Origin: Streptomyces sp. 840.1
GTDB lineage: Bacteria > Actinomycetota > Actinomycetes > Streptomycetales > Streptomycetaceae
DNA length: 64,000 nucleotides
Assembly: GCF_003751445.1 (NCBI RefSeq)
Contig: NZ_RJUU01000003.1
Location: 992,001 to 1,056,000 of the forward strand
Direction of reading: 5' to 3'
The notes beneath the pieces were generated by a model. It had not been told where the DNA came from and searched no databases. It saw nothing but the letters and a program-made list of their open reading frames with translations. Both the position numbers and the translations under genes were made by a program. Below, piece after piece: positions 1 to 19,476 of the stretch. The number at the start of each line of letters is the position of its first letter. Positions within the stretch are counted from its first letter, which is position 1.

Positions 1-3000
1 GGCGGCGGTGGATCGCGGGGGTGGTGAGGAGCAGGCGTGGGGCTGCGTCGTCGAGCATGTACGACAGGCGCTGGGCCGGGTAGTCGGGGTCGAGCGGCAC
101 GTAGGCAGCGCCGGTCCTGAGGACGGCGAGCAGGGCCACCACGAGGTGGTGGGTGCGGGGCAGGGCGACGGCGACGCGGTCCTCGGGGCCGATGCCCTGT
201 GCGGCGAGGTGGTGGGCGAGGGTCTCGGCGCGGGCGTCGAGTTCGCCGTAGGTGAGGGTGGTCGTGGCGTCGCGGACGGCCGGGGCGTCGGGAGTGCGCC
301 GGACCCACTGCTCGAAGAGCGCGGGAACCGTCGACCCGGTGTGGTGCTCGACGGGCCCGGTCCCCCAGTCGGTGAGGCGGGTGCGCTCGGCGGCGGTGAG
401 CACGTCGTAGGTGTGCAGGGAGCGTTCGGGGTCCGCGGTGACGGTGTCGAGCAGCAGGACGAGCCGGTCGGCGATGCCGCGGACCGTCGCCTCGTCGAAG
501 AGTTCCGTCGCGTAGTCGACCGCTGCCCGCATGCCGTCCGGGGCGCCGCTGTCGTCGTACGTCTCGGTGAAGGTGAACGACAGGTCGAACTTGCTGACCC
601 CGGCGACGACCGGTACGCCGCTCACGGTCAGGTCCGGCAGGTCGATCGCGGCAGCGGGCGCGTGGTTCTGCAGGACGAGCATGGTCTGGAAGAGGGGGTG
701 GTGGCTCTGTGAACGCGTGGGGTTGAGCAGTTCGACCAGTCGCTCGAAGGGGACGTCCTGATGCGCGTACGCGGAGAGGTTGGAGTCCTTCACGCGGTCG
801 AGCAGTTCGAGGAACGTCGGGTCGCCTGTCAGGTCCGTGCGCAGCACGAGGGTGTTCACGAAGAGTCCGACGAGGTCGGAGGCGGCTTCGTCGGTGCGTC
901 CGGCGACTGCCGTGCCCAGCGGGATGTCGTCGCCGGCGCCGTGCCGGGACAGGACGGTCGACAGGGCGGCCTGGAGGACCATGAAGGCGCTGCATCCGCT
1001 GGTCCGGGCGAGTTCCGCGATCCGCCTGGAGGTGGTGGCGGTGACGGCGAAGTCGTAGGTGGCTCCGGTGTGCCGGGGTACGGCCGGGCGCGACCGGTCC
1101 CACGGCAGCTCGACCATCTCCGGAAGGCCGTCCAGTGCGGCTTTCCAGTAGTCCAGTTGGCGCGATACGAGACTGTCCGGGTCGTGCTCGTCGCCGAGGA
1201 GGCGGCGCTGCCAGAGGGTGTGGTCGGCGTAGTCGACAGGCAGTGCGGGCCGTGCGGGTTCCTCTGCGCGGAGCCGGGCCCGGTAGGCGGCGCCCAGGTC
1301 GTGGACGAGAGGCGCGAGGGAGGATCCGTCGGCGGCGATGTGGTGGATCACGAGCACCAGGACGTGGGCGTCGTCGGCCAGGCGCAACAGGGTCGCCTGG
1401 AGCGGGAGGCGGTGCTCGATGTCGATCGGCTCTGCCGCGGCGGCTCTGATCCGGTGGTGGATCTTGTCCTCGTCGATCGTCTCCGATGCGAACGGGAGTC
1501 TGACGTCGTCCGGGGCGGTGATGTGCTGGTGCGGTCCGGTGTCGCCTTCGGGGAAGACCGTGCGCAGGGCGGCGTGCCGGCAGACGACGTCGTGCAGGGC
1601 CAGGCGCAGGGCCTCCGTGTCGAGAGGTCCGTCGATGCGTACGGCGAAGGGGATGTTGTACGTGGAGGAGGGGCCTTCGAGCCGGTGGAGGAACCACAGG
1701 CGCTGCTGGGCGTACGACAGCGGAATCGTGGCGGGACGTTCCTGCGGGGTGAGGGCGGGGCGGGGCGGGTGGCCCGATTCCGCCAGGGCGGTGGCGAGTG
1801 CGGCGACGGTGGGGTTCTCGAAGAGGGTGCGGATCTCGGTCTCGGTGTCGAGGGCGGCGCGGACACGGCCCACGAGTCGGGTGGCGAGCAGGGAGTGGCC
1901 GCCCAGGGCGAAGAAGCTGTCGTCGATGCCGACGCGCTCCACGCCGAGCACGTCGGCGAAGAGGCCGGCGAGGATCTCCTCCATGGCGCTGCGCGGCGGC
2001 CGGCCCTGCGCGGCGGGCGGGCCGTCAGGCCTGGGCAGGGCGGCCCGGTCGAGCTTGCCGTTGGGGGTCAGCGGCAGCGTGCCGACCGGCTGGATGACGG
2101 AGGGGACCAGGTAGGCGGGCAGGTGGTGTCCGACGTGCGCGGCGAGCCGGTCCGGGTCCGGGGCGGGCTGTCCGGGTGCGGGGACGACGTAGGCGGTGAG
2201 GGTGCGGTCGCCGGGCAGGTCCTCGCGGACCAGGACGCAGGCGGCCAGCACCGACGGATCGGTACGGAGCACCGTCTCGATCTCGGCGGGCTCGATGCGG
2301 TGGCCGCGGAGTTTGATCTGCTGGTCGGACCTGGCCACGTAGTGCAGGAGGCCGTCGGCGTCCCGGCGTACGAGGTCGCCGGTGCGGTACATGCGCTCCC
2401 CGGCTTCGGAGAACGGGTCGGCGACGAATCGGGTGGCGGTGAGGCCGGGCCGCCCCAGGTAGCCGCGCGCCACTCCGGCGCCCGCGATGTACAGCTCGCC
2501 CTCGGCGCCGGTCGGTACGGGTCGCATCGCCGGGTCCAGGACGTGGGCGCGCACGCCGTCGAGCGGCCGGCCGATCGGGGCGGCGCCGGTGGGCGCGTCG
2601 CCGGGGCGGACGCGGTGGACGGTGGCGAAGGTGGTCGTCTCGGTGGGGCCGTAGACGTGCAGGACGGTGGTGCCGGGGTGGGCGGCGGCGACGCGTTGCA
2701 GCACGCCGGGTGCGGCGCCCTCGCCTCCGGTGGCCACCGTACGCAGCAGGCCGAGGGCGCCCGGATCCGCTTCCGCGAGGACGTTGAACAGGGCCGTCGT
2801 CAGGAACGCCGACGTCAGGCCGTGCCGGGTGACGAGGTCCCTGAGCACGGCGGGCTGGAGCGTGCCTTCGGGTGCCACGACGACGCGGCCCCCGTTGAGG
2901 AGCGGGGCCCAGATCTCGAAGGTGGAGGCGTCGAAGACGTACGCCGAGTGCAGCAGGACGGCGTCGGCCGCGCCGTCCTGCCAGGCCCGGTGCGAGGCGA

Positions 3001-19476: not shown

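Follow-up and report, generated by a model that had tools for sequence, protein, structure and literature searches.

Acyl-capped peptide aldehydes from Streptomyces NRPSs with a terminal reductase have already been described. The passages on the flavopeptins in PMC8009326, PMC4071589, PMC10548850 and PMC8949500 present them as acyl-protected peptide aldehydes whose NRPS, in Streptomyces sp. NRRL F-6652, carries a terminal NAD(P)H reductase; those in PMC8009326 and PMC4071589 report that they inhibit the ChT-L and C-L sites of the 20S proteasome. The locus studied here lies in Streptomyces sp. 840.1, at the left edge of a stretch of 64,000 nucleotides (C3:992001-1056000, hereafter the window) within a 4-contig, 8.84-Mb genome. 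We read it, with a probability of roughly 0.8, as a three-gene NRPS unit making a linear lipohexapeptide aldehyde, most likely of the flavopeptin kind. The initial annotation of the window had proposed a peptide built on a dipeptide repeat and had found no described Streptomyces peptide to match it; judging from the cited passages on the flavopeptins, the latter statement is probably wrong.

Organisation and neighbourhood of the locus

The features of the locus are presented in Table 1. The two coupled NRPS genes of the initial annotation were recovered: NRPS1 and NRPS2 overlap and both lie on the minus strand, the start of NRPS2 being assumed at the GTG at 4930. Other large NRPS loci of the same genome are found at C2:728-766 kb, C3:1194-1213 kb and C1:2938-2957 kb, and condensation matches across the whole genome number 45.

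Table 1. Features of the NRPS unit (window coordinates unless marked as genome).
Feature	Position	Strand	Description
mbtH	19879..20097	-	72 aa; opens the unit; Pfam MbtH E 4.4e-25
Imperfect palindrome/hairpin	19764..19816	-	53 nt; lies in the leader of ~400 nt that separates mbtH from NRPS1
NRPS1	4927..19476	-	4849 aa; C1-A1-T-C2-A2-T-C3-A3-T-C4-A4-T-E; one TTA codon (55)
C1	18031..19431	-	Starter-type condensation domain
A1	16471..17973	-	DAFFAGVTFK; Ile/Val predicted
A2	13153..14661	-	DAWQLGLIDK; Gln predicted
A3	9964..11466	-	DAFFCGVTFK; Ile/Val predicted
A4	6760..8277	-	DAWQLGLIDK; Gln predicted
E domain	4987..6492	-	After T4; residue 4 D-configured (predicted)
NRPS2, N-terminal part	1..4930	-	C5-A5-T-C6-A6(start)
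NRPS2, whole	Beyond the left edge to genome C3:989362 (L005:5362-12930)	-	2522 aa; C5-A5-T-C6-A6-T-R
C5	3599..4915	-	D-donor (DCL-like) condensation domain
A5	2033..3541	-	DAFFAGVTFK; Ile/Val predicted
A6	1..343 in window, rest genome C3:990859-992343	-	DAWTVAAVCK; Phe predicted
Terminal reductase	genome C3:989362-990540	-	After T6; TIGR01746 E 9.5e-89, above cut-off

Relatives of C1 come from 41 named loci, with Streptomyces in the title of 36; of 295 Streptomyces genomes taken as a sample, 21 carry C1 at E <= 1e-90, the genome of the window among them. In 36 of the 41 loci the unit is preceded, at no more than 1.5 kb and in the same orientation, by a relative of mbtH. When 20 frames on the right-hand side of NRPS1 were compared, wide recurrence was confined to the frame opposite mbtH (19759-20322, +; 31/41 loci, the next best 3/41), which is the reverse of the mbtH gene and was set aside. 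An SDR at 20981-21805 (+), considered as a tailoring reductase, has a match in one locus only (L006) and was rejected. The same single locus holds the only match of an aldo/keto reductase (26581-27480, +), and a stand-alone AMP-binding enzyme (24678-26528, +) is without a match upstream in the relatives (41 loci).

Downstream of NRPS2, frames were chosen by GC3 bias and matched at 35% identity and 60% coverage; among 14 relatives, no frame was shared by more than two genomes, and tailoring is therefore not anticipated. FdhD, the formate dehydrogenase-like subunits and the sugar ABC transporter to the left of NRPS2 likewise do not recur beside the unit in these relatives. Since the neighbours do not recur, the unit consists, as far as examined, of mbtH, NRPS1 and NRPS2.

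Adenylation domain codes and their conservation

Pocket residues follow the GrsA PheA numbering, and position 278 of A1, A3 and A5 was read by local motif. The codes of the initial annotation stand: DAFF[A/C]GVTFK in A1, A3 and A5, and DAWQLGLIDK in A2 and A4. Within the first set the identities are 67% (A1-A3), 62% (A1-A5) and 60% (A3-A5); A2 and A4 are 61% identical, and the first set shares 46-47% with A2/A4. A6 resembles A2 and A4 at 52 and 50% identity, and the core motif YVIYTSGST is common to all three; its code, DAWTVAAVCK, fits DAWT[I/V]AAVCK, which we take to be a Phe code. The A2/A4 code is one residue off the tyrocidine code for Gln (DAWQFGLIDK) and one off that of McnA (DAWQTGLIDK), as both are given in the part of PMC2866473 on these codes. 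Concerning A1, A3 and A5, the relevant section of PMC2533009 places DAFFLGVTFK at positions taken by Ile or Val, and the code is there an Ile/Val-coding one of cyanopeptolin synthetases. The substrate of these three domains is thus best predicted, from their codes, as Ile/Val; pocket position 299 in domains of this type is A, C, S or T, vs L in the cyanopeptolin code. The literature search found no occurrence of the exact A1-A5 codes.

The conservation of the codes was followed in two samples. For gene 1, the sample is the query with the 120 matches listed out of 599; seven proteins with five or seven A domains were left out, and the count covers the 114 that have four. Position 278 reads F/Q/F/Q in 112 of these 114; of the two exceptions, one is incomplete and lacks A4, and in the other A1 was missed by the pattern and is F by eye. 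The gene-2 sample consists of the query with the 120 matches listed out of 7160, and all 121 of these proteins combine DAFF in A5 with DAWT in A6, the full A6 code being DAWT[V/A/T]AAVCK in every one.

Initiation, epimerisation and release

C1 shares 22-26% identity with the other C domains and the E domain. Its closest solved relative is the first C domain of CDA peptide synthetase I (4jn3, 7.2e-59), a lipoinitiation domain, followed by 7c1k (9.6e-58), ObiF1 (1.4e-52) and EntF (8.5e-33); the NCBIfam models MxcG and EntF match below their cut-offs. ObiF1 is aryl-accepting, and because C1 matches it, together with the sub-cut-off MxcG and EntF matches, the starter may instead be an aryl group. 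This resemblance and the residue at position 299, which differs from the L of cyanopeptolin synthetases, are what speak for a flavopeptin-like architecture of a different family, with another acyl or aryl starter or with other aliphatic residues. We regard this as possible but rather doubtful: the best solved relative of C1 is the CDA domain, no aryl-acid pathway family was found among 30 frames scanned around the unit, and the lone AMP-binding gene nearby has no match upstream in the relatives.

The E domain scores above the TIGR01720 cut-off, and its best PDB chains come from PvdL and the tyrocidine and gramicidin S synthases, which we take to be E domains as well. Its motif HHxxxDxxSW is present in 113 of the 114 gene-1 proteins (among the matches listed). 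The best PDB relatives of C5 are chains of PvdL, bacitracin synthase 3, McyB, and the surfactin and tyrocidine synthases, presumably all of the DCL class.

NRPS2 ends in an intact thioester reductase, in which TGASGFLG and YGQSK are both present. Release is expected to be reductive, because the R domain lies above the TIGR01746 cut-off and both motifs are kept; TGxxGFLG and GYxxSKW are each found in 119 of 121 gene-2 proteins among the matches listed. A Dieckmann-type R* release, in which the catalytic Tyr is lost, was rejected, as GYxxSKW is present in the query and in those 119 proteins. An acylated N-terminus, as is expected here, would make an imine between head and tail unlikely. In four of six relatives' genomes this reductase is the sole match above the NCBIfam thioester-reductase cut-off; the other two, S. 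griseus BIG105 and S. noursei, hold further reductases above it, for totals of two and three.

The same assembly line could instead release its chain by four-electron reduction, giving a lipohexapeptide that ends in phenylalaninol. MxaA makes an alcohol, and reductases of its type can go on to the alcohol; among PDB entries, 8v1x is the best relative of the reductase and MxaA (4u7w) the second. The passage of PMC8949500 on reductive release states that the aldehyde is generally reduced further to the alcohol, but the same source names the flavopeptins as aldehydes. No partner reductase recurs downstream (14 relatives) or upstream (41 loci) of the unit either, and the alcohol seems to us quite improbable.

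Phylogeny of the adenylation domains

In a tree of 38 domains, A1/A3/A5 and A2/A4 each form a clade (1.0 in both cases), and A6 joins A2/A4 at 0.943. The second tree was built with 58 further domains, the best matches to A6 and A2 (1e-90, 197 genomes), one of which duplicates A2, so that 57 are from outside. The third contains 84 outside domains, the best matches to A6, A2 and A1 (1e-70 for A1); with a cut-off of 1e-130, the outgroup search across 149 genomes had recovered nothing but the query, from a single genome. A1/A3/A5 remain a clade at 1.0 in both. A2 and A4 group with the pair from P0219 at 1.0 in the 57-outgroup tree (A2+A4 0.955) and form a clade at 1.0 in the 84-outgroup tree (A2+A4 0.967), where DAYF-type codes are the neighbours of A1/A3/A5. 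With A1 as query, A3 and A5 are the top two matches (67% and 63%), and the best domain from a foreign genome reaches 55%.

A6 behaves differently. In the 57-outgroup tree it is placed beside a domain of the foreign locus L070 (DAWTVAAVC, 60% identity, 0.918) among Phe-like codes, and in the 84-outgroup tree it belongs to a five-domain group (0.917) that includes the other DAWTVAAVC domain of that locus; the deeper nodes around it are weak (0.45-0.56). Its placement as a sibling of A2/A4 was dropped once the outside domains were added. The grouping that the initial annotation had predicted is therefore found for A1/A3/A5 against A2/A4 and fails for A6, whose likeness to A2/A4 extends to the core motif and overall identity and does not include the code or the wider trees. 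That A6 loads Gln and the X-Gln repeat goes on, as the A1-A5 pattern, the 50-52% identity with the shared core motif and the node in the tree with few outgroups might suggest, is very improbable, since the A6 module closes the line ahead of the reductase, its Phe-type code is kept throughout the listed gene-2 proteins, and 24 domains from other genomes outscore A2 when A6 is the query.

A tree of 537 domains included the relatives. Each gene-1 A position forms its own clade in 112 of 114 proteins (111 of 113 for A4), the A3 clade being weakly supported (0.27); A5 and A6 form their own clades in the 41 gene-2 proteins sampled of 121. Each A position thus clades by position across the relatives, and the A-domain order is therefore old.

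Origin of the modules

The initial annotation suggested duplication of a two-module block. The likeness within A1/A3/A5, within A2/A4 and within T1/T3/T5 (60-66%, all remaining T pairs 38-52%) agrees with this, but the C domains do not: C2-C4 and C3-C4 are both 61% and C2-C3 56% identical, C6 is at 52-58%, and C2, C3 and C4 show no pairing by two-module block. A6, as seen above, is no sibling of A2/A4. A duplication followed by swaps of A-T stretches explains these values no less well than a clean block duplication.

The exceptions to the positional clades are P0219 (Streptomyces sp. A1-5) and P0232 (Streptomyces sp. NPDC057743), in which A1 and A3 are 86 and 83% and A2 and A4 92 and 91% identical, respectively. 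Along the chain of P0219, similarity reaches 98-100% inside the A cores and is lower around them, a pattern suggestive of gene conversion. The near-homogenised A1-A3 and A2-A4 pairs of both proteins are consistent with gene conversion between modules; as cases, they show that exchange between modules happens. The unit is thus a clear case of a kept A-domain order with signs of inter-module gene conversion.

The leader palindrome and the TTA codon

The palindrome between mbtH and NRPS1 has GATC arms that flank an inner stem of the CTC/GAG type. The leader is 386-438 nt long in 31 of 36 sequences; a simple pattern detects GATC-type arms in 18 of the 36 and misses the window's own. Of 26 aligned leaders, 15 were picked for a visible palindrome, which is absent or degraded in several leaders outside these 15. 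In the chosen leaders pairing holds in 79.7% of the cells, and both sides have changed in 10 of 22 pairs; the covariation score was reached by 0 of 500 shuffles and the number of pairs changed on both sides by 37 of 500. The palindrome stretch folds better than its shuffles (z -3.06). An Rfam scan of the window gave no match, and a scan for promoter and terminator consensus found none at 19470-21000. The palindrome may be an operator or an attenuator.

The only TTA codon of NRPS1 (codon 55) lies at 19312-19314 (-). Among 35 related loci listed, 9 have a TTA with an identical codon index and three more (L026, L032 and L036) have one at a slightly lower index, which suggests that dependence on bldA is retained in some lineages only. 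We consider unlikely a broader picture in which the products would form a lipohexapeptide aldehyde family apart from the flavopeptins: an old, strictly kept aliphatic/Gln strand design would then extend across many Streptomyces, expression would be gated by the conserved mbtH-synthetase palindrome and by bldA through TTA codon 55, and modules 1-2 and 3-4 would be alike via gene conversion in some lineages.

Predicted product and comparison with known systems

The predicted product of the preferred reading, a lipohexapeptide aldehyde, is acyl-(Ile/Val)-Gln-(Ile/Val)-D-Gln-(Ile/Val)-Phe aldehyde. C1 would take a fatty acyl group and couple it to residue 1, and modules 1 to 6 would load Ile/Val, Gln, Ile/Val, Gln, Ile/Val and Phe. 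The E domain would turn the Gln of residue 4 to the D form, C5 would accept this D-residue, and the C-terminal reductase, with NAD(P)H, would detach the product from the final carrier with a phenylalaninal end. The calculated core masses, before acylation, are 744.453 Da for H-Ile-Gln-Ile-Gln-Ile-Phe-al and 702.407 Da for the variant H-Val-Gln-Val-Gln-Val-Phe-al. With hydrophobic residues and Gln alternating, the peptide could form an extended strand that presents its aldehyde at P1 (Phe), and such a strand would fit chymotrypsin-like proteases and the proteasome. The order X-Q-X-Q(D)-X-Q given in the initial annotation is thus retained for its first five residues, X-Gln-X-D-Gln-X; since A6 is of the Phe type and sits in the final module, with the reductase behind it, the expected product is a hexapeptide whose end departs from the pattern and no growing dipeptide repeat. 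In place of a mispredicted repeat polymer there is a concrete product class, a linear acyl-hexapeptide aldehyde that should act as a protease inhibitor. Because the unit is compact, widespread and, in the relatives examined, without tailoring genes, its product should be well predictable and checkable by mass spectrometry.

We assign the cluster to the lipopeptide-aldehyde kind, where it is probably flavopeptin-like; identity of its product with the flavopeptins is likely but unproven. The flavopeptins and their NRPS were reportedly described by Chen et al. (2013, JACS), and the producer is said to have been compared with S. flavogriseus ATCC 33331. We take this renamed reference species to be S. 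pratensis, in which homologues of gene 1 (P0155) and gene 2 (P0043, P0052) are found among the matches listed. A literature search on peptide and lipopeptide aldehydes and on phenylalaninal or phenylalaninol peptides gave, among the titles listed, none naming the cluster.

Concerning other known systems, the first C domain of the CDA synthetase (4jn3) is the closest solved chain to C1; CDA itself, a cyclic lipopeptide, leaves its synthetase through a thioesterase. The product of the linear gramicidin synthetase is much longer and has a regular D/L alternation along the chain, whereas here two A subtypes alternate and there is one E domain. Fellutamide and tyropeptin come from other organisms or have other lengths, whereas the product here would have six residues with alternating Gln. 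The linear gramicidin synthetase is alike in being an NRPS with a terminal reductase, according to the relevant passage of PMC8949500, and fellutamide, tyropeptin and other peptide aldehydes share, in the section of PMC8009326 on them, the C-terminal aldehyde and the proteasome inhibition that are predicted here from the genes. The flavopeptins are alike, in the passages describing them, in the Streptomyces NRPS, the terminal NAD(P)H reductase and the acyl-protected aldehyde that this unit is predicted to make.
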